A DNA stretch of 38,254 bases, from positions 1-38,254 of the forward strand of contig CANQBK010000013.1 in assembly GCA_947589485.1 (NCBI GenBank). The letters are read 5' to 3'. This stretch comes from an uncultured Clostridia bacterium (lineage in GTDB: Bacteria; Bacillota; Clostridia; Oscillospirales; Acutalibacteraceae). The notes below the pieces were generated by a model that made no database searches, had not been told where the DNA came from, and was given only the letters and a program-made list of their open reading frames with translations. The position numbers and the translations under genes were made by a program. How positions within the stretch are numbered: the stretch's first letter is position 1; every line of letters starts with the position of its first letter. Below are positions 1 through 38,254 of the stretch, piece by piece.

Positions 1-245
1 TGCGACAAGGGACTCTGTCCCTTGACCCTGCCGCCTTTTAAAAAAGGCGGGCGAAAATGCGCCGAGCCGGCGCAGGCAATTCGCGTTGTCGCTCACTCCG
101 TTCGCTCGTACTGCAAGAGATAAGTATGTTCGCGCGCAATAAAGTTAATGCATCCATAGTTAAAAGTTTCGCTCAAGCCTTTTCAAAGGCTTGCGGATTC
201 CAAAGGCGGAGCCTTTGGCGGGTTTTTAAGGGCGGAGCCCTTAAC
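1..245 (-). repeat. Dispersed modular hairpin repeat, copy R1
   Basis: This is the first of five copies of an intergenic repeat family. I define polarity as running from the AAGGGC hairpin towards the core unit, so this copy points to the minus strand, away from the 3' end of gpmI. Hairpins visible from right to left are AAGGGC/GCCCTT (228-242), CCAAAGGC/GCCTTTGG (200-218), AAGCCTTT/AAAGGCTT (175-192), then the core unit with two 9-base words GAGYGARCG, then GCGCCG/CGGCGC (59-73). Further hairpins are CCGCCTTTT (31-50) and CAAGGGAC-TCT-GTCCCTTG (6-24). Most loops are three bases. No convincing gene lies in 1-320; the reading frame from 57 is repeat sequence. The copy may continue beyond the window edge. 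Confidence 0.85.
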
Positions 246-256
246 ATTCATTTTTT

Positions 257-302
257 AATAAAAACAAACGGCAGTATATTTACACTGCCGTTTGTTTTTT
301 AT
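257..302 (-). terminator. Terminator of the glycolytic cluster
   Basis: A 16-base perfect stem (260-275 with 284-299) around an 8-base loop is flanked by A-runs and T-runs, so it can act on both strands. It lies 19 bases beyond the gpmI stop codon. It probably ends the pgk-tpiA-gpmI transcript and insulates it from the repeat at 1-245. Confidence 0.85.
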
Positions 303-320
303 ATAGTTTTATTTTTTGAT

Positions 321-1832
321 TTACTTAATTAAACTCTTTCCGTCCATCTCATTTGGAATTTCAAGACCGAGAATTTGGAGCATTGTCGGGGCAATGTCCG
401 CAAGTCTGCCGTTGTCACGAATTACACAGGGATAGTTTACAACACAGAACGGTACAAGGTTTGTTGTGTGTGCGGTAAAGGGCTTTCCGTCCTCGTCAAG
501 CATTTTGTCCGCATTTCCGTGGTCGGCGGTAATAAGAGCAATACCTCCGGCTTCGGTTATGGAATCAACTATTTTTCCCACACATTCGTCAACGGTTTCA
601 ACAGCCTTTACGGCGGCTTCAAATATACCCGTATGACCAACCATATCGCAGTTTGCAAAATTGAGAATAATTACATCGTACTTTCCGCTTTCAATTCTTT
701 CAATAACATTCTTGGTAACTTCATAGGCGCTCATTTCGGGCTGTAAATCATAGGTTGCAACCTTTGGAGAGGGAATAAGACATCTGTCCTCTCCTTCGTT
801 TACCTTTTCAACGCCGCCGTTAAAGAAAAATGTTACATGAGCGTATTTTTCCGTTTCGGCAATTCTCAACTGTGTAAGACCCTTTGAAGAAATATAATCG
901 CCAAATGTGTTTACAAGCGATTGAGGCTTAAACGCAACCTGTACATTAGGCATAGTTGCATCGTATTGCGTCATACAAACGTATGTAAGCGGAAAGAATC
1001 CTTTCTTTCTTTCAAATCCGTCAAATGACGGGTCAACAAGAGTACGGGTAATCTCCCTTGCACGGTCGGGACGGAAGTTAAAGAATATAACCGAATCTCC
1101 GCTTTTAATCTCCGCATTTTCCTCACATACCACCGGAATTACAAATTCATCGGTTACTCCCTCCGAATAGGATTTTGCAACAGCCTCCGCAGGGTCGGAA
1201 GCCTTAGGTCCTTCACCGTAAACCATTGCGGCATACGCCTTTTCCACACGGTCCCAGTTTGTGTCACGGTCCATTGCGTAGTAACGTCCCATAACCGTAG
1301 CTATTTTGCCCGTTCCTATTTCGTCAAGACGTTTTTTACATTCTTCTATATATCCCTTTGCGCTTGAGGGCGGAACGTCACGTCCGTCAAGAAAAGCGTG
1401 AATATATACATTTTTAACGCCTGACTTTTTCGCCATTTCTACAAGACCGTACAGGTGTGTAATATGGCTGTGAACTCCGCCGGGCGAAAGCAAGCCCATA
1501 AGATGCAGTGATTTACCGTCCTCTTTGGCATTGTTCATAGCGTTGACAATTGCGTCATTTTCTAAAATAGTGCCGTCTTTAATAGACTTGGTAATTCGTG
1601 TAAGTTCCTGATAAACAACACGACCTGCGCCGATATTTGTATGACCAACCTCACTGTTGCCCATTTGACCGTCAGGCAGTCCCACGTCCATACCCGAAGC
1701 CGCAATAAGACCTACGGGATTTTTTGAAAATATGCGTTCAAGGTTCGGCTTATTTGCCGTTCTGACAGCGTTGCCATAGTTTGTGCCAATGCCAAAGCCG
1801 TCAAGAATCATAAGTATTAATGGTTTTTTCAT
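321..1832 (-). CDS. gpmI: 2,3-bisphosphoglycerate-independent phosphoglycerate mutase
   Basis: The 503-residue protein has the usual length for cofactor-independent phosphoglycerate mutase, which interconverts 3- and 2-phosphoglycerate in the cytosol using a phosphoserine intermediate and two metal ions. The N-terminus shows MILDGFGIG with metal-binding D11. The catalytic serine is S60 in GQMGNSEVGHTNIG. DGRDVPPSS and the C-terminal metal motif TADHGNADKM are also present, so all phosphatase-domain and transferase-domain signatures are intact. The start has a GGGGGAC ribosome binding site five bases upstream. It is the last gene of a minus-strand cluster, 14 bases after tpiA, and is followed by a strong terminator. 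Family assignment is secure. Confidence 0.97.
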   Translation of the reverse strand: MKKPLILMILDGFGIGTNYGNAVRTANKPNLERIFSKNPVGLIAASGMDVGLPDGQMGNSEVGHTNIGAGRVVYQELTRITKSIKDGTILENDAIVNAMNNAKEDGKSLHLMGLLSPGGVHSHITHLYGLVEMAKKSGVKNVYIHAFLDGRDVPPSSAKGYIEECKKRLDEIGTGKIATVMGRYYAMDRDTNWDRVEKAYAAMVYGEGPKASDPAEAVAKSYSEGVTDEFVIPVVCEENAEIKSGDSVIFFNFRPDRAREITRTLVDPSFDGFERKKGFFPLTYVCMTQYDATMPNVQVAFKPQSLVNTFGDYISSKGLTQLRIAETEKYAHVTFFFNGGVEKVNEGEDRCLIPSPKVATYDLQPEMSAYEVTKNVIERIESGKYDVIILNFANCDMVGHTGIFEAAVKAVETVDECVGKIVDSITEAGGIALITADHGNADKMLDEDGKPFTAHTTNLVPFCVVNYPCVIRDNGRLADIAPTMLQILGLEIPNEMDGKSLIK

Positions 1833-1846
1833 TTTATGTCCCCCAA

Positions 1847-2617
1847 TCAGCCGTTTGAAGCGGCATCAAGAAGAACACCGAAATCCTTGGCTTTTAACGA
1901 TGCTCCGCCAATAAGACCTCCGTCAACATTCGGCTGAGCGAGGAGTCCGGCGCAGTTTGTGGGGTTCATAGAACCGCCGTATTGAATCGTTACAGCATCG
2001 GCAACGTCTTTTCCGTAAAGTTTTGCGAGCTGTTCACGGATAAAGCCGCAGACCTCTTCAGCCTGTTCTGCTGTTGCCGTTTCACCTGTTCCTATTGCCC
2101 ATACGGGTTCGTAAGCAATAATAGTCTTTTTTACATCTTCGGCAGATACATCATAAAGGTCCAGTTTTATCTGTCTTGCAATAACCTCTTCGGTAATGTT
2201 GCACTTGCGCTCCCAAAGAAGTTCTCCAACGCAAACAATAGGTTTCAAGCCTGCCGCAAGAGCCGCCTTTGTTCTTTTGTTTACTGTTTCGTCGGTTTCA
2301 CCGAAATACTGTCTTCTTTCGCTATGACCTACAATAACGTATTCAACGCCTATTTCCGTAAGCATATCTGCGGAAATTTCGCCCGTATATGCGCCGCTCT
2401 TTTCAAAGTGTACATTTTCCGCACCAACCTTAATGTTTGTGCCTTTTGTAAGTTCAACGGCTGTTTCAAGATTTGTAAAGGGTACGCATATAACAACACC
2501 ACATTCAGCCTTTTCCGCAATCGGCTTAAGCTCCTCAATAAGAGCTTTTGCTTCGGGACGTGTCTTATTCATTTTCCAGTTTCCGGCAATAACTGCCTGT
2601 CTAAGTTCTTTGTTCAT
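1847..2617 (-). CDS. tpiA: Triosephosphate isomerase
   Basis: This 256-residue TIM-barrel enzyme interconverts dihydroxyacetone phosphate and glyceraldehyde 3-phosphate. Substrate-binding N13 and K15 lie in AGNWKMNK, the electrophile H98 in VGHSERR, and the catalytic base E170 in AYEPVWAIGTG, which also carries the mobile loop 6. The phosphate-binding GGS motif appears near the C-terminus as YGGSMNP. The start has AAAGGAG eleven bases upstream. It sits between pgk (107 bases upstream, with a terminator-like hairpin between them) and gpmI (14 bases downstream), which suggests shared transcription with partial attenuation. Nothing is truncated. Confidence 0.97.
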   Translation of the reverse strand: MNKELRQAVIAGNWKMNKTRPEAKALIEELKPIAEKAECGVVICVPFTNLETAVELTKGTNIKVGAENVHFEKSGAYTGEISADMLTEIGVEYVIVGHSERRQYFGETDETVNKRTKAALAAGLKPIVCVGELLWERKCNITEEVIARQIKLDLYDVSAEDVKKTIIAYEPVWAIGTGETATAEQAEEVCGFIREQLAKLYGKDVADAVTIQYGGSMNPTNCAGLLAQPNVDGGLIGGASLKAKDFGVLLDAASNG

Positions 2618-2651
2618 TTGTTATTTTACTCCTTTAACTTTTTAATAATTT

Positions 2652-2687
2652 AAAAACAAACGGAGCAGGGCAATGCCCTACCCCGTT
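2652..2687 (-). terminator. Intercistronic terminator or attenuator between pgk and tpiA
   Basis: Read on the minus strand, AACGG..AGGGC-ATT-GCCCT..CCGTT forms a stem with two small internal loops, followed at once by TGTTTTTAAA. It lies 37 bases after the pgk stop and 35 bases before the tpiA start. No strong promoter is evident in the remaining gap, so partial read-through to tpiA is the likely outcome. Confidence 0.6.
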
Positions 2688-2724
2688 AAAAACCGATGTT
2701 AAATTATGTGTCTGTGAACAGGAA

Positions 2725-3921
2725 TTAATCCTTGTCGTTAAGGCACGCAATACCCGGAAGTACCTTGCCCTCAAGAAATTCAAGAGATGCGCCGCCGCCT
2801 GTGGAGATATGAGTCATTCTGTCGGCATAACCGAGTTTTTCTACCGCAGCAGCCGAATCGCCGCCGCCTATAATGGAAATTGCGCCGCTTTCGGCAACAG
2901 CCTTTGCAACAGCGATTGTTCCCTGTGCAAAGTTTTCCCATTCAGAAACGCCCATAGGACCGTTCCATACAACCGTGCCGGCACCGTTCAAAGCGTTTGC
3001 AAATTTTTCTCTTGTTTTAGGTCCTATGTCAAGACCCATCCATTCGCCCTCGATTTTATCCGAAGGAACAATTTTATACTCGGCGTCCGCCTTATATTCC
3101 TTTGATACAACAGTGTCTTCGGGGATAAGGAAGTTTACGCCCTTGTCTTTTGCTTTAGCCATAATATCCTTTGCAAGCTCAACCTTGTCAAGCTCACATA
3201 TTGATGTTCCCGTAGAATAGCCCAAGGCTTTCATAAAGGTATATGCCATACCGCCGCCGATAATAAGCGTATCAACCTTATCGAGGAGGTTTGTTATAAC
3301 GCCGATTTTATCGGATACCTTTGCACCGCCGAGAATAGCGACAAAAGGTCTTTTCGGGTCTGAAAGTGCGCCGCCCATAACGGTTATCTCTTTTTGAATG
3401 AGGTAGCCGCAAACAGCGGGCAGATAATCAGCAACGCCTGCGGTCGAAGCGTGTGCTCTGTGAGCTGTGCCGAATGCGTCGTTTACATAAATTTCAGCAA
3501 GAGAAGCAAGCTGTTTTGCAAATTCGGGGTCGTTCTTTTCCTCTTCTTTATGGAAACGAACATTTTCGATTAACTCAACTTCACCGTCATTGAGAGAATC
3601 GGCGATTGATTTTGCACTTTCGCCTACAACGTCCTTTGCCATTTTTACTTCAAAGCCGAGAGCCTTTGAAAGATAAGCGGCAACAGGAGCAAGTGAGAAT
3701 TTCATATTAAATTCGCCCTTAGGACGACCAAGATGTGAACAAAGAATAACCTTTGCTTTATGCTCTATAAGATATTTAATTGTTTTGAGAGCCTCGTCTA
3801 TACGTTTCGGGTCCGAGATGTTGCCCTCGCCGTCAAAGGGTACGTTAAAATCGCAACGCACAAGAACCTTTTTGCCGGCTACGTCGATGTCTTCGACAGT
3901 TTTCTTGTTAAGATAATTCAT
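2725..3921 (-). CDS. pgk: Phosphoglycerate kinase
   Basis: Phosphoglycerate kinase makes ATP from 1,3-bisphosphoglycerate and ADP in glycolysis. The preferred start is the ATG at 3921, giving 398 residues. It begins [13 protein letters not shown] like family members and has AAGGA eleven bases upstream; an in-frame ATG at 3957 would add 12 atypical residues. The signature RCDFNVPF (R22, D24, N26), the LGRPKG substrate loop, [17 protein letters not shown] and the C-terminal [11 protein letters not shown] nucleotide motif are all visible. It is the first gene of the pgk-tpiA-gpmI cluster. A glyceraldehyde-3-phosphate dehydrogenase gene, often directly upstream of pgk, is not present in this window. 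Confidence 0.97.
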
Positions 3922-3998
3922 TGTGACTGACATCCTTTCAGATATTTTTAGCTGCATACAAAACTGCTTTTATGCAATATTAACGGTAATTAAAACAA

Positions 3999-4070
3999 TA
4001 CGGACGATTCTTTCCGTATATGTAATGTCCGATACAAAATCATTATAAGCAGCCATTAGTATTTTATAAC
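3999..4070 (-). promoter_or_regulatory. Probable pgk promoter and leader hairpin
   Basis: On the minus strand a perfect TATAAT lies at 4047-4042; the matching -35 region near 4070-4065 (GTTATA) is weak. The resulting leader would be roughly 110-120 bases and contains a 6-base stem TACGGA/TCCGTA (3999-4018). The remainder of the 3922-4142 gap is AT-rich and shows no gene. Confidence 0.4.
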
Positions 4071-4142
4071 ATTTGAGGTAATTTTTCAATAGAAAAAATA
4101 AAATTTTTGTAACATACTTGTATTTTCAACCTACAAGCGGCT

Positions 4143-5921
4143 TTATTTGCTTTCGGTCTTTTTGACGGGTTTCTTTGACGGAGCTTTTTCAGTTTTTACT
4201 GTTTCCTGCGTTTTGGCTTCGTCCGCAGCCGTTACTGCTTTCTCGTCATTTTTACTTTTCTTTTCGGTCGTGCCTTTAGCGGCGGTTTTTGCCGCAGATG
4301 CAGGGGCTTTTGCCGCCTCAGTTTTTGTTGTTTTCTTTGCGGTCGATTTTGTTGCGGTTGATTTTGTTGCAGTTAATTTTGCGGACGGTTTGGAAGTTGA
4401 TTTTTTAGCCGTCGGTTTGTAAGTGTCAAGCCCCTCGCAGCTTTCAAGGAAAGGCTTTAATTTTTTGTAAATCGTGTCGGTACCGCCCTCGCTGTCGCTT
4501 TCGATATTAAGCGGCATAATGGGATCGTGTACACTGAGTCTGAGCAAGAACCAACCGTTGCCGTTTCTTTTGTCAAACGATACTCGGATACCCTCGTGAT
4601 TGTCGTCGGCAATTTTAAATGTTTTTTGCTTTTCCGCATAAGCGTACAGGTCGGAAATAACCTTTTCACCGTAAGTACGGAAATCCTTTTCGTTGATTTT
4701 TATACGAATTTCTTTGCTTTCAACTGCTTCGTTTAAGCCGGCTGTAAGGTCTTGGAGCTTTTTGCCCTCTTTTCGGAGCTGTGCCATTTTAATTATTATT
4801 TTTGTGACAAGGTAAGCACCGTCATCTAAAAAATAGTTCTCTCTCATTGCGGCATGTCCCGATGTTTCGATTGCAAGAGGACAGTTTACACCGTTTCTGT
4901 TTTGTTTTATCGCCTCGTCTATAACATTTTTATAGCCGCGTTTAAAACGGAGATGTTTGCCGCCCAAATCGTTTTCTATAAAATCCTTTAAACCGCTTGA
5001 TGTAATCGAGTCGGTAACTATAAGACCGCCGGCATTGTTTTCAAGCGCAATGGCTGAGGCAAGCGCAACAAGGCGGCTTCGGTTGATTTCTTTTCCGGAA
5101 GCATATACCACGGCGGCACGGTCAACGTCCGTATCAAATATTACGCCCAAATCCGCGTTTGATTTTTTAACGGCGTCGCATATTGATTCCATTGCGGCGG
5201 GATCTTCGGGGTTCGGAACGTGGTTCGGGAATGTGCCGTCCGGATTGAGGAACCTGCTTCCCCTTATATCGGCTCCAAGAGCTTCAAGTACGTCGGACGC
5301 GTAAAAACCGCCGACTCCGTTACCGGCGTCTGTAACTATGCGGAAACCTTTAAGCGGGTGATTGTAGTCATCCTCCGAATTAACGGCTTCTTTTATCATT
5401 TCCCTCAGGTTGAACGCGTATTGACTCATATAGTCGCAGTCTGTCAATTTTCCGTTATCGCTCTCGGAAAATCTCTTGCCCTCTTGTGCATATTCCAGAA
5501 TTGATACAATATTTTCGCCCTCAAGACCTCCCTCACGGGTAAAGAACTTAAATCCGTTGCGGTAATACGGGTGGTGGCTTGCTGTTATTTGAACGGCGCC
5601 GTCACATTCAAGATCTATTGTTGTCATAAACATCGACGGGGTAGAGGCAAGACCGCAGTCAATGACCGAAACGCCGGCGTTGAGCATTTCGTCTATTGAA
5701 AGTCCGACAATGTGCGCGCCGGAAATTCTTGAATCGCGTCCTATTGAAATTTTAAGCTCATCGGGATTTTTTCCGGTTTTGCCGCTGAGCCACTTTACAA
5801 AGCCGTTTGCAACCGCTTTGACTGTTTCGTCGGTAAGGTTTACTTCGTAACCTGCTCCGTCAACGGCAACTCCTCTTATATCCGTACCGCTTTTAAGTTG
5901 TTTCCAAAAATCATTTAACAT
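4143..5921 (-). CDS. Phosphomannomutase/phosphoglucomutase family protein with basic C-terminal tail
   Basis: This 592-residue protein belongs to the alpha-D-phosphohexomutase superfamily. The phosphoserine loop reads TASHHP (S115), the metal loop DTDVDR (263-268), and the sugar-specificity loop ETSGH. The phosphate-binding region reads RLSVHDP instead of the common RPSGTEP, keeping R, S and P. Substrate (mannose or glucose phosphate) cannot be fixed from sequence. Residues 500-592 form a low-complexity tail rich in Lys (about 25 of 93), Ala, Thr and Ser, beyond the end of the usual enzyme fold. The start ATG at 5921 has GGAGG seven bases upstream. It lies 13 bases after the gene at 5935-6864 and is presumably co-transcribed with it. 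Confidence 0.9.
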   Translation of the reverse strand: MLNDFWKQLKSGTDIRGVAVDGAGYEVNLTDETVKAVANGFVKWLSGKTGKNPDELKISIGRDSRISGAHIVGLSIDEMLNAGVSVIDCGLASTPSMFMTTIDLECDGAVQITASHHPYYRNGFKFFTREGGLEGENIVSILEYAQEGKRFSESDNGKLTDCDYMSQYAFNLREMIKEAVNSEDDYNHPLKGFRIVTDAGNGVGGFYASDVLEALGADIRGSRFLNPDGTFPNHVPNPEDPAAMESICDAVKKSNADLGVIFDTDVDRAAVVYASGKEINRSRLVALASAIALENNAGGLIVTDSITSSGLKDFIENDLGGKHLRFKRGYKNVIDEAIKQNRNGVNCPLAIETSGHAAMRENYFLDDGAYLVTKIIIKMAQLRKEGKKLQDLTAGLNEAVESKEIRIKINEKDFRTYGEKVISDLYAYAEKQKTFKIADDNHEGIRVSFDKRNGNGWFLLRLSVHDPIMPLNIESDSEGGTDTIYKKLKPFLESCEGLDTYKPTAKKSTSKPSAKLTATKSTATKSTAKKTTKTEAAKAPASAAKTAAKGTTEKKSKNDEKAVTAADEAKTQETVKTEKAPSKKPVKKTESK

Positions 5922-5934
5922 AATAATTCCTCCG

Positions 5935-6864
5935 TTATTTAATCTCTGATTTATATGCGTATTTATCATCTGTTTTTGTCAGCTTGAAATCATCATCTAT
6001 TGTAAGCGTCTTTCCGTTTACCGAATATTTAAAATCGAAGTCAGCGGTTGTTCCTCCGGCGGCAACAAAATTATAGGTGCATTTGCCGTCTTTGGGATTG
6101 TATCCGCCGATCATATCCATTTCCGAGGACAATTGCTCAAGGACTCCGTCTTTACTGAATGTAAAAGTATATGAATATCCCGTTGCCTCATCTTTGTACA
6201 GCCACGTTCCCACCAGCTTGTCATCGGCTTTGAAGTCGTCGTATTTTTTAATTTCGGGTTCGGTGGCGTAGTTTTCAAAGGTCAGCTTGTAATATCTTAT
6301 ACCGTCCTCTTCAGAGCTTTTTGCAAATTTCTTTTTAAGTTTTACCAAGTCCTGTTCATCGGTTTCGGAATTTATTTCGTCGGGAGGAAAAATCAAACCG
6401 GTTCTGTCCGTAAGAGTAAGATGTTTTCCCGTAAAAATATTTCCCGAAATTTCATAGTCAAAATATGCGTCAATGAATGTTTGCCCAAGGTTTGACGCGT
6501 AAATATGTATCTGCGGAGCTTTATCGACAAAATTGTATTTGCCTATAAATGTTCTGCCCCCGTAATTGAAACGCATAACATTGTCGTCCTCAAATGTGAA
6601 ATTATATGTGTACTTGCGTTCCGTTTGGTCTATTTTGAAAGTCCAGCTCCCTATAATTCCGGTGTCGAAAAAGCATTTCCAAACCCCGAAAAAAATGAGC
6701 GTTGCAATAAAAATAATCGTTGCAATCAAAAGCGGAGTTCCGATAGGTTTGTTCTTTGAACGCTTGCGCTTTTGCTTGCCGTTTTTATTTTTATCGGCAG
6801 ACGCATCGCCGTTGTTTTGGACGGTATCCGTTTCGGGATTACCGACATTTGTTTCAGATGGCAT
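5935..6864 (-). CDS. Membrane-anchored protein with two lipocalin-like repeats, function unknown
   Basis: The preferred start is the ATG at 6864 (GGGGAGG seven bases upstream), giving 309 residues. Residues 1-42 are charged and basic, ending in KQKRKRSKNKP. One hydrophobic segment follows at about 45-65, and the remainder should lie outside the membrane. That part holds two related modules. The first begins GSWTFKIDQTERKYTYNFTF and the second GTWLYKDEATGYSYTFTF. Both share the pattern G-x-W, Y-x-(Y/F)-T-F-T-F and a later G-x-Y. The pattern resembles small beta-barrel domains such as DUF5640, but I cannot confirm the family. It is the first gene of a two-gene unit with the phosphohexomutase at 4143-5921. 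Confidence 0.75.
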   Translation of the reverse strand: MPSETNVGNPETDTVQNNGDASADKNKNGKQKRKRSKNKPIGTPLLIATIIFIATLIFFGVWKCFFDTGIIGSWTFKIDQTERKYTYNFTFEDDNVMRFNYGGRTFIGKYNFVDKAPQIHIYASNLGQTFIDAYFDYEISGNIFTGKHLTLTDRTGLIFPPDEINSETDEQDLVKLKKKFAKSSEEDGIRYYKLTFENYATEPEIKKYDDFKADDKLVGTWLYKDEATGYSYTFTFSKDGVLEQLSSEMDMIGGYNPKDGKCTYNFVAAGGTTADFDFKYSVNGKTLTIDDDFKLTKTDDKYAYKSEIK

Positions 6865-6885
6865 AAAATTTCCTCCCCGTTTGTT

Positions 6886-6952
6886 TTTTTGCCGACGTCG
6901 GCAAAAAGAAAAAACCGACCCCGTTCCGAGGCGCTGTCCCTGTGAGGAACGG
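6886..6952 (-). promoter_or_regulatory. Palindrome and second stem in the leader of the 5935-6864 gene
   Basis: A perfect 22-base palindrome with no loop spans 6886-6907, centred on GCCGACGTCGGC (6891-6902). Next to it, CCGTTCC (6921-6927) and GGAACGG (6946-6952) form a 7-base stem with an 18-base loop. Both lie between the promoter at 6987-7015 and the ribosome binding site. A protein operator or an RNA leader element is possible. Confidence 0.5.
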
Positions 6953-6986
6953 AGCAAATCCAAAATTTTCCTTTTCGCTTTGTTCT

Positions 6987-7015
6987 AATATATTTTAACT
7001 TAAATTTACTGTCAA
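6987..7015 (-). promoter_or_regulatory. Vegetative promoter for the 6864-4143 unit
   Basis: On the minus strand TTGACA (7015-7010) is separated by 17 bases from TATATT (6992-6987). This is a near-consensus SigA-type promoter, about 125 bases before the ATG at 6864. Confidence 0.8.
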
Positions 7016-7136
7016 TACAAGCCAAAAATCAATTTATTTTTCGGATTTTTCACCTTCACATACGTTAAGAGATGTTAATATTATGTTTTAGGCGCTCTTT
7101 TTATTGGCAAAAAAATATTATATGGAAAACTAATTG

Positions 7137-7165
7137 TTGAAACGTGAAGAAAAATATGATATTAT
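7137..7165 (+). promoter_or_regulatory. Promoter of the plus-strand phosphoglucomutase gene
   Basis: TTGAAA (7137-7142), a 17-base spacer and TATTAT (7160-7165) precede the ATG at 7225 by 59 bases. It is divergent from the promoter at 6987-7015, with 121 bases between the two -35 boxes. Confidence 0.7.
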
Positions 7166-7224
7166 ATATATATCTATTTTGGTATTTATTTAGGTTAAAA
7201 CCGTAATATTAGGGGGACTTTAAC

Positions 7225-8943: not shown

Positions 8944-8969
8944 TCCCGTTACAATAAAACATACACCTG

Positions 8970-9010
8970 CAAACGGCAAGAACCAAGTTGTTTTTGTCGT
9001 TTGTTTTTTT
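8970..9010 (+). terminator. Terminator after the phosphoglucomutase gene
   Basis: CAAACGGCAAG (8970-8980) pairs with the segment 8993-9003, with G-T wobbles, followed by seven T residues. It lies 27 bases after the stop codon. Confidence 0.7.
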
Positions 9011-9108
9011 ATTTTCATACGGTTTTTGTTTGTTCCGTATCTTTGAATAACAATAAATAAAATTCAACATATCATATTATTAAACAAGAATATGAATGGA
9101 GAACTTAT

Positions 9109-9378
9109 ATGAATAATATTGATATATGCAGTCTTGACGAATTAAAAATAGGCGAGAGCGGTTTTGTTTGTACTTTGCCGGAGGATATTGAAAAGCGCCG
9201 ACGCCTTATGGCTTTGGGGCTTATAAAGGGAACCGAGATTACCGCAGTAAATGAAAGTCCGCTCGGAGACCCGAAAGCGTATTTTTTCAGAGGGGCGGTC
9301 ATTGCGTTAAGACACAATGACGCAAAAAATATAATTATAAAAACAAACGGTGACAGGTGGGATAGACTTGAGCAATGA
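9109..9378 (+). CDS. feoA: FeoA family ferrous iron transport accessory protein
   Basis: This 89-residue protein has the FeoA SH3-like pattern: a Leu/Gly start (LDELKIGESGFV), the central RRRLMALGLIKGTEI segment, and GDPKAYFFRGAVIALR. FeoA supports FeoB during ferrous iron uptake at the cytoplasmic membrane. The ATG has GGAGAA upstream. Its 3' end overlaps feoB, so the two are translationally coupled. No clear Fur-type operator or strong promoter is recognisable in the AT-rich 9011-9108 leader. Confidence 0.93.
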   Translation: MNNIDICSLDELKIGESGFVCTLPEDIEKRRRLMALGLIKGTEITAVNESPLGDPKAYFFRGAVIALRHNDAKNIIIKTNGDRWDRLEQ

Positions 9379-13316: not shown

Positions 13317-13326
13317 TGTAGCCATA

Positions 13327-13780
13327 TAAGTTAATGTATCCATAGTTAAAAGTTTCGGTCAAGGCGCAGTGCCTGCGCTGTCGATTCGCGTTGTCGCTCA
13401 CTCCGTTCGCTCTTACTGCAAGAGATAGGTACAGTCGCGCGGCGTAAGTTAATGTATCCATAATTAAAAGTTTCGGTCAAGGCGCAGTGCCGGCGCGGGC
13501 GATTCGCGTTGTCGTTCGCTCCGCTCACTCGTACTGCAAGAGATAGGTACAATCGCGCGGCGTAAGTTATTTTAGCCATAGTTAAAAGTTTCGCTCAAGC
13601 CTTTTTAAAGGCTTGCGGATTCCAAAGGCAGAGCCTTTGGCGGGTTTTTAAGGGCGGAGCCCTTAACTGCACCGAGCCGGCGCGGGCAATTCGCGTTGTC
13701 GCTCACTCCGTTCGCTCGTACTGCAAGAGATAGGTACATTCGCGCGGCATTAGCTAATATATCCATAGTTAAAAGTTTAT
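13327..13780 (-). repeat. Tandem 118-bp units of the dispersed repeat, copy R2
   Basis: Three successive units start at 13327, 13445 and 13563, a period of exactly 118 bases; a fourth partial start appears at 13751. The third unit is 188 bases because it holds the three-hairpin cassette (AAGCCTTT, CCAAAGGC and AAGGGC stems). Unit content includes GCGCAG-TGC-CTGCGC, the 9-base words GAGYGARCG, and the block around ATCCATAGTTAAAAG. Polarity is the minus strand in the sense used for R1. The locus lies between the convergent 3' ends of the M3 peptidase and mecA genes, with no supported gene in 13317-13929. Short frames in it are not counted as genes because the period is not a multiple of three. 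Confidence 0.9.
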
Positions 13781-13798
13781 TGATGCGGAGAAATAACC

Positions 13799-22098: not shown

Positions 22099-22329
22099 GG
22101 CGCCGAGCCGGCGCAATTAAGGGCTCCGCCCTTAAAAACCCGCCAAAGGCTCCGCCTTTGGAATCCGCAAGCCTTTGAAAAGGCTTGAGCGAAACTTTTA
22201 ATTATGGGTACATAAACTAACGCCGCGCGATTGTACTTATCGTTTGCAGTAAGAGCGAACGTAGTGAGCGATAACGCGAATCAACAGCGCAGGCACTGCG
22301 CCGCGAATCGCCCGCGCCGGCTCGGCGCC
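22099..22329 (+). repeat. Dispersed modular hairpin repeat, copy R3, with terminal inverted repeats
   Basis: This 231-base copy is bounded by GGCGCCGAGCCGGCGC (22099-22114) and its exact reverse complement (22314-22329). Inside, in order, are the hairpins AAGGGC-TCC-GCCCTT, CCAAAGGC-TCC-GCCTTTGG and AAGCCTTT-GA-AAAGGCTT. Then come GAGCGAAACTTTTAA, the 9-base words (GAGCGAACG and TAGTGAGCG) and GCGCAG-GCA-CTGCGC. The copy lies between the tRNA-Cys terminator and the 3' end of rnhA. The inverted-repeat ends make it resemble a miniature inverted-repeat element, although no target-site duplication is obvious. Confidence 0.88.
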
Positions 22330-27245: not shown

Positions 27246-27270
27246 TTAAAGAAAGGAAATGGGAAACACT

Positions 27271-27732: not shown

Positions 27733-27733
27733 T

Positions 27734-27960
27734 AGTTAAGGGCTCCGCCCTTAAAAACCCGCCAAAGGCTCTGCCTTTGGAATCCGGCAGCTTTTTTAAA
27801 AAAAAGCTGCGCAAAAAACTTGACTCCGGATTACATAAACCTATTGCGCGCGAATGTAGTTATTGTTTGCAGTAAGAGCGAGCGGAGCGAGCGACAACGC
27901 GAAATGCCCGTGCCGGCTCGGCACCGCGAATTGACAGCGCAGGCACTGCGCTGCGAGGCT
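27734..27960 (+). repeat. Dispersed modular hairpin repeat, copy R4, between rplI and dnaB
   Basis: The copy starts two bases after the rplI stop with AAGGGC-TCC-GCCCTT and CCAAAGGC-TCT-GCCTTTGG. In place of the usual third stem it has an alternative one, GCAGCTTTTTT/AAAAAAGCTGC (27787-27810), enclosed by AATCCGG/CCGGATT (27781-27832). The 9-base words are two identical GAGCGAGCG copies. It ends with a GTGCCGGCTCGGCAC stem and GCGCAG-GCA-CTGCGC (27937-27951). No promoter is visible between it and dnaB, so dnaB transcription probably runs through it. Confidence 0.88.
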
Positions 27961-27991
27961 ATAACCTAAAATAATAAAAGAGTGACAGTGA

Positions 27992-30698: not shown

Positions 30699-30718
30699 AA
30701 GGAGAGGAAAACAGAAAA

Positions 30719-31276
30719 GTGCATACGGATATAGCCGAAATCCTTTTTGACGAAGCACAGTTGGAGTGTATCGTCAACAGTCTTGCGGAACGCATTAACA
30801 AAGATTACAGCGGAAAAACACTTGAAATTATCGGTATACTTAAAGGCAGCGTTGTTTTTCTTGCAGATTTGATTCGCAAACTGGAGATTGATTGTACGCT
30901 TGATTTTATAACCGCTTCAAGCTACGGAGCAAAAACAGTGTCGTCGGGAAAAGTCAGGCTGGACGCAAATATGCTGCCCGACTTGAAAAACAAACATATT
31001 TTGCTTGTTGAGGATATTCTGGATACCGGAAGCACGCTTGCCGGTATAAAAAATATTGTATACGGAAAGGGGGCGTTTTCCGCTGCCGTTTGTACGTTGT
31101 TCAACAAGCCGTCAAGACGAAAAAAACCGATAAAAGCCGAATATGTCGGTACGGATATTCCCGATAAATTTGTAGTCGGGTACGGTCTTGATTATAACGA
31201 TCGTTACAGAAACTTGCCGTATGTCGGTGTACTGAAGCCCGAAATATATACGGGCATTAATAAAATAAAGGAGTGA
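30719..31276 (+). CDS. hpt: Hypoxanthine phosphoribosyltransferase
   Basis: This 185-residue purine salvage enzyme joins hypoxanthine or guanine to PRPP. The PRPP-binding motif [10 protein letters not shown] is at 97-106. [13 protein letters not shown] (39-51) and the flexible-loop region SSYG (67-70) are in place, and the C-terminal purine-binding segment reads [21 protein letters not shown]. The GTG start has AAGGAGAGGAAAAC upstream; 20 bases separate it from tilS. It stands between tilS and ftsH as in Bacillus. Confidence 0.95.
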
Positions 31277-31283
31277 CAAGCCC

Positions 31284-33236
31284 TTGGATAACAAGAAAAC
31301 CGTGCGTAATCTTTTAATTTATCTCGGAATACCCATAGTATTGATAATAGTAGTTTCTTTGGTTCTGTCAATGCAGCCCAAACAGGAATATTCAACATCG
31401 GAAATTATATACCTTTTCCAGGATCAAAAGGTTAAGGAATATACTCTTGACTTCGGTTCGGGCGATCTTTCCATTACCAAAACAAATGGTAAGAAGATTG
31501 AAACAAACGTTGCAAGCGTTACGCTGTTCTTGGAATCCGTCGATAAATATGTCGATGAGTATAACGAAAAGAACGACAAGCCGATGAAATTTACATGGAA
31601 ACAAGCAACCGACAATTCGTGGTGGCTCAGCTTGGTTCCGAACCTTATCCTTATTTTGCTTTTGGGCGTAGTATGGTGGTACTTTATGCGCAAGCTCTCA
31701 GGAAGTATGGGAGATGCGGGCAAGTCGATGAATTTCGGCAAGGCAAAAATAAAAAGTATAAGCGACGAAAAACGCAAAACAACATTTGCCGATGTTGCGG
31801 GAGCTGACGAAGAAAAAGAAGAACTGCGGGAAATAGTAGAGTTTCTTAAAGACCCCAAAAAGTACAACGAGCTTGGCGCAAGGATACCTAAGGGCGTTCT
31901 TTTGGTGGGCCCTCCCGGTACAGGTAAAACGCTTCTTGCGAGAGCTGTCGCAGGCGAAGCAGGAGTGCAGTTTTTCTCTATTTCGGGTTCTGACTTCGTT
32001 GAAATGTTTGTCGGCGTAGGTGCGTCGCGTGTAAGGGATTTGTTCGATCAGGCAAAGAAAAATTCACCTTGCATTATATTTATTGATGAAATAGACGCTG
32101 TCGGACGCCAAAGAGGAGCAGGACTTGGAGGAGGTCACGACGAAAGAGAGCAAACCCTTAACCAGCTTCTTGTTGAAATGGACGGATTCGGCGCGAATGA
32201 GGGCGTAATTATGATTGCGGCAACAAACCGTCCTGATATACTTGACCCCGCGCTTATGCGTCCCGGACGTTTTGACAGACAGGTTATTGTAGGCAGACCC
32301 GACATAAAGGGCCGTGAGGAAATACTGAAAGTTCACGCAAAGGGAAAGCCTCTTGCTCCCGATGTTGAGCTTAAAACAATAGCAAAATCCACGGCAGGAT
32401 TTACGGGCGCAGATCTTGAAAATCTTCTTAATGAGGCGGCACTGCTTGCGGCAAGAAGAAACTTAAAGGCAATAACAATGGCTGAAGTTGAGGAAGCTAC
32501 GGTTAAGGTTGTTGCAGGTACGGAAAAGAAATCGCGTGTAATGAGCGATAAGGAGAAAAAATTGACGGCATATCACGAGGCAGGTCACGCAATAGCGACT
32601 TATTTTTCACCGACTCAGGATCCCGTACACCAAATATCTATTATACCGAGAGGTATGGCAGGCGGATTTACAATGTCGCTGCCGTCTGAGGATAAATTTT
32701 ACCGTTCCCGCAATGAAATGCTTGAAGAAATTGTTGTACTTCTTGGAGGACGTGTTGCCGAAGCTCTTATACTGGGAGATATTTCAACGGGAGCGTCAAA
32801 CGATATTGAACGTGCCACGAATCTTGTGTTCTCTATGATTACAAAATACGGTATGAGCCAAAAGCTCGGTCCGATAACCTACGGCTCGTCTGACGGAGAA
32901 GTATTCCTTGGTAAGGAATTTGGACATAACAAGACATATTCCGAGGAAACTGCGGCGGAAATAGACGCCGAAATAAAGGACTATATTACAACAGGTTACA
33001 ATAAGACCGAAGAAATACTGAAAGAGCATACGGCTGAACTTCACAGGGTTGCAAAGTTCCTTTTTGTGAATGAAAAAATGACAGGTGAGCAGTTTGTGTG
33101 CGTGATGGAGGGTAAGGAGATCCCCGACACAGGTAACGATGAAGAAAATGATAACGATGACTCGGACGAATCGGATTCACAGGAAAAATCCGAAACAACC
33201 GAAACAGAGAATAATTTTTCATCGGACGATAAGTAA
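31284..33236 (+). CDS. ftsH: ATP-dependent zinc metalloprotease FtsH
   Basis: FtsH is a membrane-anchored AAA+ protease for quality control of membrane and regulatory proteins. The 650-residue protein has membrane helices at about 9-27 and 112-131 around an external domain. Walker A GPPGTGKT is at 209-216, Walker B is [10 protein letters not shown], and the second region of homology has [20 protein letters not shown]. The zinc site HEAGH is at 431-435. The C-terminal tail after about residue 610 is very acidic (Asp/Glu/Ser-rich). The TTG start has AAGGAG eleven bases upstream, overlapping the hpt stop; seven bases separate the two genes. Confidence 0.97.
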
Positions 33237-33240
33237 AAAA

Positions 33241-33300
33241 CCGGAGCTGTCGCACGGCGTTAAAATTGCGTCCGTGCGCCGGCTCTATTATTATATTTTG
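33241..33300 (+). terminator. Terminator after ftsH
   Basis: GAGC and CGCACGG (33244-33257) pair with CCGTGCG and GCTC (33272-33285) across a 14-base loop. The 3' side is rich in T and A (TATTATTATATTTTG). Confidence 0.65.
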
Positions 33301-33338
33301 TTTGTTCAGTTAAATTAAATGAGAAAATACAGGATATG

Positions 33339-33367
33339 TGCATAACCGCATATTGATTCGGTATAAT
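33339..33367 (+). promoter_or_regulatory. Probable uvrA promoter
   Basis: A consensus TATAAT lies at 33362-33367, 55 bases before the ATG. The -35 region (TGCATA, 33339-33344) is weak. Just before the -10 element an imperfect inverted repeat, ATATGTG/CGCATAT, occurs. I see no clear LexA box. Confidence 0.45.
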
Positions 33368-33422
33368 TTTGTATATGTCGGTCAAATTAATTTTGCAATA
33401 CAATAAAATGAAGGGATAAAAT

Positions 33423-36251
33423 ATGGCATTTAAAAAAATAACCGTAAAGGGCGCAAGAGAACATAATCTTAAAAATATAAATGTTGAAATCCCCCGTGAC
33501 AGTTTGGTCGTTATGACGGGTTTATCCGGCTCCGGAAAGTCATCTCTTGCATTTGACACGCTTTATGCGGAAGGACAAAGAAGGTATGTGGAGTCGCTGT
33601 CGTCTTATGCCAGAATGTTTTTGGGTCAAATGGATAAACCCGACGTTGACGGAATTGACGGGCTTTCTCCCGCAATTTCGATAGACCAGAAAACCACGTC
33701 AAAAAATCCCCGTTCAACGGTCGGCACCGTGACGGAAATATACGACTATCTGCGTCTTATGTACGCAAGAATAGGTATCCCTCATTGCCCGATATGCGGA
33801 AGGGAAATAAAACAGCAGACAGTCGACCAAATAGCCGACAAGATTTTGGAATTGCCGCAGGGAACAAAAATACAGGTTATGGCGCCCGTGGTACGTTCAA
33901 AAAAGGGCGAACATCAAAAGGAATTTGACGCGGCGGCAAAAAGCGGCTTTGTCCGTGTCCGTGTTGACGGTATAATATACGACCTTTCGGAAGAAATAAA
34001 ACCGGAAAAAAACAAAAAACACAATATAGAAATTATTGTGGACAGACTGGTTGTAAAGGAAGAAATACGTTCACGTCTGTCCGATTCAATAGAAACCGCC
34101 TCAAGGCTCGCAAAGGGGCTTGTGCTTGTTGCAGTCAATGACGGCGATGACATACTTTTTTCACAAAATTATGCTTGTCCTGAGCATGGGATAAGTATTG
34201 ATGAGCTTAGCCCGAGAATGTTTTCGTTTAACAATCCTTACGGTGCGTGCAAAAAGTGTACGGGTTTGGGCGTCTTTATGAAAATTGACGTAAACAGGAT
34301 TATTCCCGACACAAATCTGTCTATTAGCCAAGGAGGCATAAAAGGAAGCGGTTGGGCAATGGAGGGCAGTACCATTGCAAGAATGTATTTTGAGGCTCTT
34401 GCAAAGCATTACGGCTTTTCGCTCTATAAGCCGATAAAGGAACTTCCGAAGAATATTGTCGATATTATTCTTTACGGCACAAAGGGAGAGAAAATTACCG
34501 TTGAACGCACTAACGAGTACGGCAGTGGAAGCTATGAAACAGAATTTGAGGGTATAATAAATAATCTTGAGCGCCGTTTCCGTGAAACCCAAAGCACATG
34601 GATAAAAGCCGAGATTGAAAGCTATATGTCGGCGGTTCCGTGCGATGCCTGCAAGGGCAAAAGACTTTCGCCGGAAAGCCTTGCCGTTACCGTGGGGGGC
34701 ATAAATATAAGCGAATTTTGCGATATGTCCGTCGGAGAGGCAATCGAATTTACAAAAAACGCAAGGTTCTCCGAACGTGAAAAAGTGATTGCAAAATCCA
34801 TTACCAAGGAAATTGACAGCAGACTGAATTTTCTTAACAGCGTAGGTCTTTCGTATCTTACCCTGTCACGCTCGGCAGGTACGCTGTCGGGCGGGGAAAG
34901 CCAGCGTATACGGCTTGCCACGCAAATAGGCTCGTCGCTTTCGGGCGTACTTTATATTTTGGACGAACCGAGTATAGGACTGCACCAGCGTGACAATGAC
35001 CGCCTTATTGCAACGCTGAAAAATCTTCGGGACTTGGGCAATACCGTTATTGTGGTTGAACACGATGAGGATACAATGTATTCCGCCGACTGTATTATAG
35101 ACATAGGACCGGGAGCGGGTATTCACGGCGGTGAGCTTGTTTGTTCGGGAAATGTTGAAGATATAAAGTCCTGCGAGCGTTCAATAACGGGTCAGTATCT
35201 CAGCAAAAGAAAATTTATTCCCGTTCCCGAAAGCAGGAGGCAGGGCAGTGGAAAAAAGCTGAAAGTGTTTGGAGCCGCACAAAACAATCTTAAAAATATA
35301 AATGTAGAATTTCCTCTTGGAAAGTTTATTTGTGTTACCGGTGTTTCGGGTTCGGGCAAATCATCGCTTATAAATGAAATACTGTACAAAAAACTGGCGT
35401 CTGAACTGAACGGAGCAAGACCCCTGCCCGTAAACTGCAAGAAAATAACGGGAACTGAAAACCTCGATAAGGTTATTGATATAAATCAATCTCCTATCGG
35501 CAGGACTCCGCGCTCAAACCCTGCGACATATACGGGAGTATTTACCGATATAAGGGAACTGTTTGCACAGACAAACGAGGCAAAGATGCACGGTTTTTCG
35601 TCAAGCAGATTTTCTTTTAACGTAAAGGGAGGACGTTGTGAGGCGTGTAAGGGCGACGGCATAATAAAAATTGAAATGCACTTTTTGCCCGATGTATATG
35701 TTCCGTGCGATGTGTGCGGAGGCAAGCGTTATAACAGAGAAACGCTTTCGGTCAAATATAAGGGAAAATCAATTTATGATGTTTTGGAGATGACTGTTGA
35801 AGAGGGCTGTGAATTTTTTAAGAACCATAAAAAAATATACGGCAAATTAAAAACGCTTTTTGATGTGGGACTGGGATATATAAAAATCGGACAGCCCTCA
35901 ACAACGCTTTCCGGAGGCGAAGCACAGCGTATAAAGCTCGCCTCGGAGCTTTCAAAAAATTCAACGGGAAAAACCATATATATACTTGACGAGCCAACAA
36001 CAGGTCTGCATATTGCAGATGTTCACCGCCTTATTGACGTATTGCAAAAATTTGTTGACGGGGGAAATACCGTTGTTGTTATTGAGCATAACCTTGATTT
36101 GATAAAGACGGCGGACCATATTATAGATTTGGGTCCCGAGGGCGGAGATGCCGGCGGAATGGTTATAGCGGAGGGAACGCCCGAAGAAATTGTAAAATGC
36201 GAAAATTCTTATACCGGAAAATACTTGAAAAAATATTTGAATGATTTATAA
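33423..36251 (+). CDS. uvrA: UvrABC system protein A
   Basis: UvrA is the damage-recognition ATPase of nucleotide excision repair. The 942-residue length is normal. The first ABC domain has Walker A GLSGSGKS (33-40) and signature [14 protein letters not shown]; the second has GVSGSGKS (640-647) and [14 protein letters not shown]. Zinc-module cysteines are seen in CPICGREIK, in YACPEHG with CKKCTG, in CDACKGKR, and in the [16 protein letters not shown] finger. The ATG has AAGGGA upstream. It begins a new transcript after the ftsH terminator and is followed by its own terminator. No uvrB lies in the window. Confidence 0.97.
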
Positions 36252-36259
36252 AAAGATGT

Positions 36260-36294
36260 ACTCCCGCTTTTGTTTATCGGGCGGGAGTTTATTT
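36260..36294 (+). terminator. Terminator after uvrA
   Basis: ACTCCCGC (36260-36267) pairs with GCGGGAGT (36281-36288) and is followed by TTATTTT. It lies nine bases after the uvrA stop codon. Confidence 0.8.
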
Positions 36295-36332
36295 TCCGAT
36301 TGGCAAAAACTGTTCGATTGCGTGGTGATATT

Positions 36333-37220
36333 GTGTTCGGATACTTACAGCCCCGATACGAAGAACTTAAAATAAAGGATTTTAAGCTCTATAAAAGTGT
36401 TTACTGCGGATTGTGCAAAAGTTTGGGTAAAAATTACGGTGTAATTTCACGGTTCGTATTAAATTATGACTGCACATTGCTTGCAATGCTTTATATTTCA
36501 CTCCGCTCCGAAAATTGCGGTACGGAAAAGGGACATTGTGTTTTTAATCCGCTGAAAAAATGCCTTTTTTGTGCCGAGGCGGGGGAGGGTCTGCGCTTTG
36601 CGGGAGCCGTATCCGTAATTACGGCATATTTTAAGTTGTGTGACACGATACGCGATTCGGGTTTTTTAAAAAAGACCGTTGCCCATGTGTTCAGATTTTT
36701 TTTGCGGAGAAGCTATAAAAAAGCGATCAGACTTTATCCCGAAATAAACAACAGTGCTTTGAATATGACGGAATCTCAAATTAAAGCGGAACAAAAAGAA
36801 AGCAGTATTGACGAATCGGCTGAACCTACCGCAAAATTTGTGTCGGCATTGTGTGAAATTATTTCGTCCGATGATAAACAGCGCAGGATTTTAAGTATAT
36901 TCGGCTATTTTTTGGGAAGATGGATTTACATAATGGATGCCGCCGATGATTTGGAAAATGACATAAAACACAACAGATACAATCCGTTCAAGAAAAATTA
37001 CAATGGCGATATAAAAGAAACAATAGGGTACTGCTGTGACGTACTCAATATGACAGTTTCACAGCTTACAATGGCGTATGATTTGTTGGAAACCGATACA
37101 TACAAAGAGATTATTGACAATGTAATATATTATGGTTTATCATTTCGGCAGAGCTGCTGTTTAGTTAAAAAGTATGGCAGTGATTTAAATGACAAAAATG
37201 AAAAAGGAGAAAAGCAGTGA
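36333..37220 (+). CDS. DUF5685 family protein
   Basis: The preferred start is the GTG at 36333 (GGTGA upstream), giving 295 residues that begin [21 protein letters not shown], as family members do. A TTG at 36270 would add 21 residues but lies inside the uvrA terminator. Visible features are YCGLC (C25, C28), D46-C47, a cysteine group C62, C69, C77 and C80, and near residue 200 the acidic pattern DAADDLEND (202-210) followed by [11 protein letters not shown]5685 has no assigned function that I know. The helical, Asp-rich motif recalls isoprenoid synthases, but that is only an analogy. It overlaps the J-domain gene by four bases. Confidence 0.85.
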
Positions 37221-37891
37221 ACGATCCTTATAAAATTCTCGGAATTTTACCTAATGCTTCCGATGATGAAGTAAAGAAAGCATATCGCAGTCTTGCCAAG
37301 AAGTATCACCCCGACAGATATGTTGACAGTCCGCTTGCGAAAGAGGCTTCCGAAAAAATGAAAGAGATCAATGCCGCATACGAAGATGTGTTAAATCAGC
37401 GGAAAAACGGTTACAGCGCAAACAGCGGTACAAGCGGCGGTACAAATTACAACACAAACGGCAATTATACATATTATGATGATAACGAAACGGAATTTTG
37501 GCAAGCGCACAACTATAATACAAACCCTAAGGCAGAGTTTGCGAAAGTACGTTTAATGATAAATTCAGGACAATTCGGAAGTGCGGAATACATACTTAAT
37601 ATGATTCCTCCTACACAACGCAGTGCGGAGTGGTATTATCTTATGGGTGTTATTAAAAACAAAAAGGGCTGGTTTGACGAGGCGGCAAATTATTATGTTA
37701 CTGCTTACCGAATGGATCCGTCCGATCCTGAATACCAAGCTGCATATAACAGGATAAAAAATCAGCGTTCCAAAAATTATACGCCATACGAGAAATACGA
37801 CACAAAAAGTTACGATTACGGTAAATGCGGATTTTTAGATTTTTGCTGCGAAATTTGCGGTTTTTGCTGTCTTATGTTAGGCAGAAAATAA
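37217..37891 (+). CDS. J-domain protein with cysteine-rich C-terminus
   Basis: The 224-residue protein starts with a J domain (1-65) carrying HPD at 31-33, so it should stimulate a DnaK-type chaperone. A Gly/Asn/Thr/Tyr-rich linker (about 68-95) leads to a TPR-like helical region (about 105-185; [20 protein letters not shown]). The last 21 residues hold six cysteines (C204, C210, C211, C214, C217, C218) among hydrophobic residues. It is not a full DnaJ, because the central zinc-finger and substrate domains are missing. The GTG start overlaps the DUF5685 stop (GTGA) with AAGGAG upstream, so it is tightly coupled to that gene. Confidence 0.9.
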
Positions 37892-37898
37892 TTGTTTG

Positions 37899-38254
37899 TT
37901 GGAGGCTCTGCCTCCAAACCTCCGCCAGTTAAGGGCTTTGCCCTTAAAAACCCACCAAAGGCTCTGCCTTTGGAAACCGCAAGCCTTTGAAAAGGCTTGA
38001 GCGAAACTTTTAACTATGTGTACATAAACTTATTGCGCGCGAATGTAGTTTTGGCTTGCAGTACGAGTGAGCGGAGCGAACGACAACGCGAATTGAGAGC
38101 GCAGGCACTGCGCCTTGAGCGAAACTTTTAACTATGTGTTCATAAACTTATTGCGCGCGAATGTACTTGTCGCTTGTAGTACGAGCGAACGGAGTGAGCG
38201 ATAACGCGAATCGCCTGCGCCGGCTCGGCGCATTTTCGCCCGCCTTTTTTAAAA
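37899..38254 (+). repeat. Dispersed modular hairpin repeat, copy R5, with two tandem units
   Basis: After the J-domain gene come TTGGAGGC-TCT-GCCTCCAA (37899-37917), AAGGGC-TTT-GCCCTT, CCAAAGGC-TCT-GCCTTTGG and AAGCCTTT-GA-AAAGGCTT. Two tandem units follow, starting at 37999 and 38117, again 118 bases apart. The copy then shows a GCGCCGGCTCGGCGC stem and runs off the window in the middle of a CCGCC-type palindrome. The last 42 bases are the exact reverse complement of 36-77. There is no gene in 37892-38254. Confidence 0.9.

Follow-up and report, generated by a model that had tools for sequence, protein, structure and literature searches.

What are the short hairpins that recur between the genes of contig CANQBK010000013.1 from an uncultured Clostridia bacterium, and how did they spread? 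The window analyzed here is the whole of this contig (C13; 38,254 bases), one of 160 contigs in a source genome of 2,390,374 bases. The original prediction described hairpins with differing stems in a constant layout at five intergenic loci, supposed that structure was under selection, offered either a non-autonomous mobile element or a structured 3'-end RNA family as explanation, and proposed that further copies be sought in this and related genomes with a covariance model. All five stretches were confirmed in the sequence, as were the listed stems, including CCAAAGGC/GCCTTTGG with 3-base loops at five sites. The observation is real, and the family is larger than first reported, comprising in addition a hairpin termed K that gives the best covariation, a directional unit order and two flank modules, A' and Z, while the first and last of the five copies prove to be arrays cut by the contig ends. 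We favor, with moderate confidence, the reading that these repeats of Ruminococcus genomes are a genus-specific, non-autonomous, modular family of intergenic DNA that spreads and is kept uniform by hairpin-guided recombination or template switching.

A Directional, Modular Repeat Dispersed Between Genes

Read in its own direction, the unit is composed of a B hairpin (TTAAGGGC TCC GCCCTTAA), a C hairpin (CCAAAGGC TCC GCCTTTGG), a D hairpin (CAAGCCTT TGAA AAGGCTTG), a spacer termed M, the K hairpin (GAGYGARYGNARYGARCGA, with the pattern GAGxGAyCGNAGzGAwCG), the linker CGCGAAT and an E hairpin (GCGCxG, then GCA or GCT, then CxGCGC). Units are chained mostly head to tail and, once E has been reached, an array either stops or re-enters the unit at E, M, D, C or B. 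Of 123 linker-E hairpins, 81 are followed by another module (linker-E in 41 cases, M in 24, C in 9, B in 6 and D in 1), with the flank module Z coming next in 9 and other sequence, partly inverted or chimeric modules, in 33. Fifteen chimeric hairpins were found, eight joining B to E and seven joining C to E, and in these the junction is the loop string GGCTC that the parent hairpins have in common. Such loop-joined chimeras can explain how stems come to differ while the layout remains constant. The repeats are, as in BOX-type elements, composites of ordered modules in which the number of internal units varies.

Copies beyond the window are plentiful, far more so than chance would give. The C hairpin pattern CCAAAGGCnnnGCCTTTGG occurs at 179 sites in the 2.39 Mb genome and the K hairpin at 304, with the reversed pattern yielding no site in either case. 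Within a 738,449-base portion of the genome, a profile search recovered 103 units, and clustering of motifs delineated 53 arrays that together span 15,665 bases. As judged by simple calling of open reading frames (ORFs), only one of the 53 arrays lies inside an ORF, with 22 being found at contig or stretch edges. Where both neighboring genes could be scored (30 arrays), 17 arrays lie between tandem genes (10 oriented with the genes and 7 against), 9 between convergent genes and 4 between divergent genes, the corresponding background of gaps between called genes being 472 tandem, 70 convergent and 74 divergent. There is no sign of a fixed orientation relative to transcription. A module was also found within 300 nt of 21 of the 31 contig ends examined in this genome (14 of 22 starts and 7 of 9 ends), such that the arrays may cause assembly breaks.

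The Folding of K and E Is Conserved

The stem of the K hairpin closes on a GNA triloop and contains two conserved G.A mismatches. Across 163 K sites, gathered with a pattern that left the paired positions free but fixed those of the G.A and GNA, Watson-Crick pairs were seen at x-w in 157, at y-z in 161 and at positions 8-12 in 162, where composition leads one to expect 0.53, 0.51 and 0.94, respectively; 49 of the 163 sites came from records that had been preselected with two of the six positions fixed and the remaining four specified as purine or pyrimidine. The reversed-sequence control for this set gave 2 matches in 1.16 Mb.

Covariation was measured in a linker-anchored alignment (A2) of 42 of 43 listed sequences, one having been dropped for Ns, with at most seven sequences per genome (7 of 33 from the source genome, 6 of 16 from RUG14638, 7 of 8 from G024 and 7 of 12 from G026). 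The alignment spans up to 14 genomes, some of which may duplicate one another under different names (an identical row from L105 and L070 was counted once). The anchor retrieved no kernel from seven genomes that do have loci (G003, G008, G018, G020, G021, G033 and G035), while G036 was without a locus. With the 3' G.A and the linker set by the anchor, the 5' G.A and the loop G and A were free to vary, and these proved to be invariant or at least 90% conserved. Pairing was seen in 88.3% of 410 cells, as compared to 71.0% in shuffled alignments, and amounted to 80.5, 97.6 and 87.8% in the individual helices. Changes on both sides were seen in 9 of 10 pairs, as compared to 6.0 in shuffles (3 of 500 were as high). 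The covariation score was 0.478, as opposed to 0.187 when shuffled (reached in 0 of 500) and 0.06-0.10 when the structure was slid along the alignment, the latter control being biased in favor of the structure since this was drawn from the A2 sequences themselves. The folding of K and E is conserved, and the idea that structure is under selection is backed by this covariation above the shuffled background. Alternative folds of the whole unit vary among the copies folded. As to base-pair intermediates, which could point to the acting strand, K presents four G.T as compared to one C.A, but D presents three C.A.

Alleles Are Extensively Reassorted Among Copies

The 85 near-full units of the source genome are all distinct. 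The 77 units of the main type are on average 82.8% identical in pairwise comparison, but rare variants make up just 3-11 per 1000 cells. When pairs of biallelic columns were subjected to the four-combination test, all four combinations were present in 532 of 595 pairs, namely, in 27 of 45 pairs lying 1-5 nt apart, 82 of 92 at 6-15 nt, 203 of 212 at 16-40 nt and 220 of 246 at greater distances. Among the 63 exceptions are the K pair 92-98 and adjacent columns of the K stem. Normalized mutual information is 0.34 for columns 1-2 nt apart and drops to 0.09-0.11 past 20 nt, with shuffles giving 0.041. Units in the same array are 85.8% identical (46 pairs), as compared to 82.4% for units from different arrays (2957 pairs). 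Given that all four combinations are seen in most column pairs, the copies recombine extensively, for which the simplest reading is that short tracts are frequently gene-converted genome-wide; assembly chimerism is an unlikely cause of reassortment between alleles a few bases apart. The measurement thus describes a single genome in which, with some 300 K hairpins present, dispersed copies have their shared alleles reassorted, linkage being slight at distances of more than some tens of bases.

Distribution Among Related Genomes

The covariance-model search proposed originally, conducted with a model of the units of the source genome, gave matches in 28 of 60 genomes, these being the source genome and 27 of 36 others of the genus, as opposed to none of 23 genomes from other families. 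The search scored at most 56 candidates per genome under strict filters, such that misses are possible and per-genome copy counts are lower bounds. The 56 candidates of the source genome scored 158-168 bits, and those of other species at most 66. In a sample of 295 genomes drawn evenly from the order, the K pattern occurred once in each of two others, with the reversed control also occurring in two, and was found neither in one further genome of the genus nor in 24 from other genera of the family. Among the matches listed, the named genomes bearing the kernel are metagenome bins of uncultured Ruminococcus and Clostridia (the RUG and Lapin series), which we take to be of rumen and rabbit origin and which account for 38 of 41 rows; the remaining three rows are unrelated taxa.

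Each species retains its own version of the repeat despite the reassortment within genomes. The M spacers of two other aligned species (RUG14638 and G024) are unlike that of the source species, and the units read in G019 are without K. Between rplI and dnaB, where an array stands in the window, the array of the source species is absent from 16 of the 17 other genomes with a readable gene pair (out of 29 other loci), absence having been judged by eye for nine genomes; the 17th, G019, carries the version of its own species there, as also judged by eye. The repeats are genus-specific and their versions species-specific. The search for an empty site was directed at G002, the closest relative according to DnaB, in which 11 of 84 flank proteins were matched within 199,771 bases, with the flanking proteins being 79-84% identical.

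Explanations for the Spread of the Repeats

The proposal of a non-autonomous mobile element is upheld by copy number, by intergenic dispersal and by the presence or absence of an array between species at one orthologous site. A classical miniature inverted-repeat transposable element (MITE), mobilized by the transposase that a full-length insertion sequence (IS) with matching ends encodes, would be found as many intergenic, non-coding copies, and a recurrent left-end motif (ATGATAGTTAAGGGC) is indeed seen at the arrays. Yet this motif, the sole end motif examined and allowed up to three substitutions, faces inward at both sides in just 1 of 53 arrays (22 of which are edge-cut), and no target-site duplication was detected in 36 arrays, with the longest flank match measuring 5.6 nt on average within the same array as compared to 5.4 nt between different arrays. 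Since the repeats thus lack the look of a standard MITE, we consider this origin very improbable. In the window itself no transposase was seen, as originally stated, either in translations of at least 140 amino acids inspected by eye or in Pfam analysis of 10 window ORFs, these corresponding to ordinary or uncharacterized genes. Among enzymes of transposition, the Y1, Y2 and RVT_1 families were sought. Repetitive extragenic palindromic (REP) sequences and bacterial interspersed mosaic elements (BIMEs), mobilized by a REP-associated tyrosine transposase (RAYT; a Y1 HUH enzyme), resemble the present repeats in that a conserved internal hairpin mismatch precedes CGCGAA, arrays are mosaic and copies exceed 100; moreover, in G003 (L145:2742; G003:C243) a K-E unit lies some 1.4 kb from a Y1 gene, the sole such case among the Y1 loci examined. 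Y1_Tnp is, however, present in just 12 of 41 genomes of the genus and is missing from 5 of the 11 element-bearing genomes that are at least 90% complete, the element motif is found at none of the five Y1 loci of the source genome, K is found at 2 of 25 such loci in relatives, both being the one place in G003, and no GTAG or CGTC tetranucleotide tag was noticed when the K-E alignment was inspected by eye. Mobilization of this kind is, therefore, highly unlikely. An IS91-like Y2 transposase was found in 1 of 41 genomes, as a 21-position fragment. Reverse transcriptase, present in 21 of 41, is missing from the element-bearing G002 and G029, among others, and is not supported as a partner.

Two further explanations need no transposase. 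Were the repeats a transcribed, structured RNA family, acting either as elements of untranslated regions, as proposed for pneumococcal BOX, or as small RNAs produced from a promoter in the M spacer, their folds would act in RNA. The covariation of K and E in the cross-species alignment would fit such a role, as would promoter-like hexamers in M, of which array 2 of the window contains three as compared to 0.3 in shuffled sequence (these being three copies of one module); among the 85 near-full units, TTGAGC or TTGACC is present in 61 and a -10-like hexamer (at least four of six matches) in 53. Array 3, by contrast, contains no promoter-like hexamers, as compared to 0.3 in shuffled sequence, the M spacers differ in the two other aligned species, only tRNAs exceeded the gathering score in an Rfam scan of the window (array 2 giving the best weak match, at E 0.79), and neither of the two arrays scanned has a T-run terminator after the unit on the strand of the unit itself, intrinsic terminators being found there on the opposite strand only, apart from one after tRNA-Cys. 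The notion of a 3'-end RNA, in particular, is weakened by the mixed orientation described above, with arrays lying both with and against tandem genes and in four cases between divergent ones. We regard a role in RNA as unlikely overall, while leaving it some weight because the M spacer of the source species has promoter-like hexamers. Alternatively, neutral hairpins could have been multiplied by nothing more than replication slippage and gene conversion, their folds persisting because foldbacks are what gets copied. Modular re-entry, the loop-centered chimeras and a distribution that is matched by none of the enzyme families tried are all in keeping with such a process. Against this stands the conservation across the aligned genomes of features that do not pair, namely, the tandem G.A and the GNA loop, which suggests recognition by something beyond pairing, and we accordingly hold the purely neutral account to be quite improbable.

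Given that no target-site duplication was found, that the end motif examined is paired in just one array and that the Y1, Y2 and reverse transcriptase distributions fail to match that of the repeats, foldback at the level of DNA, with template switching at hairpins and gene conversion, is favored. In single-stranded DNA, particular stability is a property of C(GNA)G loops and of tandem sheared G.A pairs. In the proposed mechanism, the strand that carries GAGxGAyCGNAGzGAwCG would form the K/E fold, in either single-stranded or extruded DNA, the hairpins would serve as start or template-switch points for copying or recombination, with microhomology in the loops being followed by RecA-type gene conversion, and the agents could be host enzymes alone or a protein acting in trans that reads K/E. 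There is some chance, albeit a low one, that a dedicated system for hairpin-recognizing recombination or transposition, other than HUH Y1/Y2, reads the K/E foldback, with its tandem G.A and GNA triloop, as single-stranded DNA, such that the dispersed repeats, in their hundreds, would remain a single recombining pool. If so, the repeats would behave as a sexual population within a single genome.

Several observations weigh against DNA-level spread through hairpins. No mobilizing enzyme was found among the three families sought, and the G003 unit does lie near a Y1 gene. No exact empty site was found for any insertion, the flanks read against G002 being too diverged, and two of the 16 genomes without the rplI-dnaB array (G027 and G030) have no model match anywhere, such that their absence says little. 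In A2, the count of further pair types (13, as compared to 14.8 when shuffled) is not above background, and each outer K pair is broken in 8 of 41 rows, partly rows with an extra base in K. Mutual information past 20 nt remains above that of shuffles, pointing to some remaining linkage, and some assembly chimerism at the repeats is possible. Finally, the M spacer of the source species bears promoter-like hexamers, and action in DNA rather than RNA is assigned on a weak 10:7 ratio of orientations and on the GNA and tandem G.A anatomy, known for its stability in DNA.

Comparison With Known Repeat Families

The comparisons that follow rely on portions of the published accounts. In yeast mitochondria, GC clusters such as GC42 undergo merger and shuffling of palindromic units, and a putative AG target-site duplication has been described (PMC4478555). 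The present repeats are likewise short, GC-rich and mostly intergenic hairpins with quick turnover, constrained structure and shuffling of palindromes, but are bacterial, and no target-site duplication was found in them, with neither the K hairpin nor the unit order being described in the portion of that account used (PMC4478555). Neisserial intergenic mosaic elements (NIMEs) and dRS3, the latter a 20-bp repeat (ATTCCC-N8-GGGAAT) used by phage integrase, also number in the hundreds, are short, have inverted ends, form intergenic mosaics and are proposed recombination sites (PMC3898611). Unlike dRS3 as portrayed there, the modules considered here are of other sequence, no phage link was found, and ATTCCC(N8)GGGAAT was not present in the modules read, although no search was aimed at that motif. 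Pneumococcal BOX, in which boxA, a variable number of boxB and boxC are framed by terminal inverted repeats likened to an IS, is similarly a modular composite with a varying number of internal modules that would be folded if transcribed (PMC3049150); as compared by architecture with the portion of that description used, the present units differ in re-entering at several points and in having a tested end motif that is unpaired (PMC3049150). With REP/BIME, the family shares extragenic palindromes arranged in mosaics and more than 100 copies (PMC3733652; PMC2817692). It differs from RAYT-linked REP/BIME, as far as these accounts go, in having no consistent RAYT link and no GTAG/CGTC tag noticed by eye, although a CGTC palindrome class is also reported to be without a dedicated transposase (PMC3733652).

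The family works like GC clusters, NIME/dRS3, BOX and REP/BIME and could not be filed under any of them, with BOX and dRS3 being set apart on the strength of their descriptions. No description of these repeats was found in the open-licence literature searched, and a literature search using the repeat letters matched only an 8-letter string among the matches listed. As such, they appear to be a bacterial counterpart of known shuffling repeat families, adding a well-defined, structure-constrained family with which the old question of how modular hairpin repeats spread and remain uniform without a visible transposase becomes directly testable.

The Arrays of the Window and Associated Sequences

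Both ends of the window fall within arrays. Array 1 (1..244, minus strand), cut by the contig start, consists of a partial flank module Z (1-58) followed by E, K, M, D, C and B modules (59-244), with its K hairpin, read by eye as having the GNA loop and tandem G.A, at 90..107 (minus) and its C hairpin, located like those below by the genome pattern search, at 200-218. Array 2 (13320..13780, minus), which lies between convergent genes encoding an oligopeptidase-like protein (named by eye) and a MecA-like protein, contains three M-K-E units and one M fragment, plus D, C and B; its K hairpins are found at 13395..13412, 13513..13530 and 13700..13717 (all minus) and its C hairpin at 13622-13640. 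The M spacer of the source species presents a promoter-like TTGA(C/G)C, 18 nt and TACATT or TAAAAT, the -10 letters differing from copy to copy, as seen on the minus strand at 13569-13598, 13451-13480 and 13333-13362.

Array 3 (22100..22328, plus strand) lies downstream of tRNA-Cys, 3' of a gene named by eye as ribonuclease H-like, and is made up of an inverted E and then B-C-D-M-K-E-E, with K at 22253..22270 (plus) and C at 22143-22161. In G002, a different tandem array (L200:8000-8350), judged by eye to comprise repeats of about 55-60 bases with CCGAGCGGAGTG and CCTCCGCGG strings, adjoins the 3' side of the rnhA match, that is, of the gene that flanks array 3. Array 4 (27733..27951, plus), with the order B-C-(M variant)-K-E-E, starts immediately past the stop codon of an rplI-like gene and ahead of dnaB (both named by eye), and includes K at 27876..27893 (plus) and C at 27762-27780. 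Array 5 (37899..38254, plus), cut by the contig end, comprises a GGAGGC/GCCTCC hairpin, B, C, D, M-K-E twice and the start of Z, with K hairpins at 38065..38082 and 38183..38200 (both plus) and C at 37955-37973.

Elsewhere in the source genome (G000), an intact Y1 gene is found at C2:66375, together with four truncated or broken Y1 (IS200-type) matches on C108, C20, C11 and C74, that on C108 ending at the contig end. Carriage of the repeats by phage was not supported, as four viral contigs match the K pattern and none contains CGCGAAT and the E kernel within 60 nt in a single scan of viral contigs. K-like foldbacks without the CGCGAAT-E kernel, such as GAGCGAGCGAAGCGAGCG, occur in unrelated viral contigs (L202-L205; L103, L114 and L119), and a similar pattern was matched in an actinomycete, a haloarchaeon and a record from Rokubacteria.

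Two other kinds of repeat accompany the arrays. A further hairpin composite, comprising modules Z and A' (CGCCTTTT..AAAAGGCG, AAGGGACnnnGTCCCTT, CGCAGTCCGCAGACTGCG, AAAAACAGTCCGGTGGACTGTTTTT and GGGGAACCC..GGGTTCCCC), joins two arrays at L023:3690-3990, L009:11590-11870 and L031:18980-19260, with cut pieces of it being found in the window at 1-58 and 38232-38254. A second type of unit, with an inverted K and another spacer, recurs between ATGATAGTTAAGGGC motifs, mostly at intervals of 145 bases, at L031:19218-19670, L034:4137-4808 and L013:57-272.

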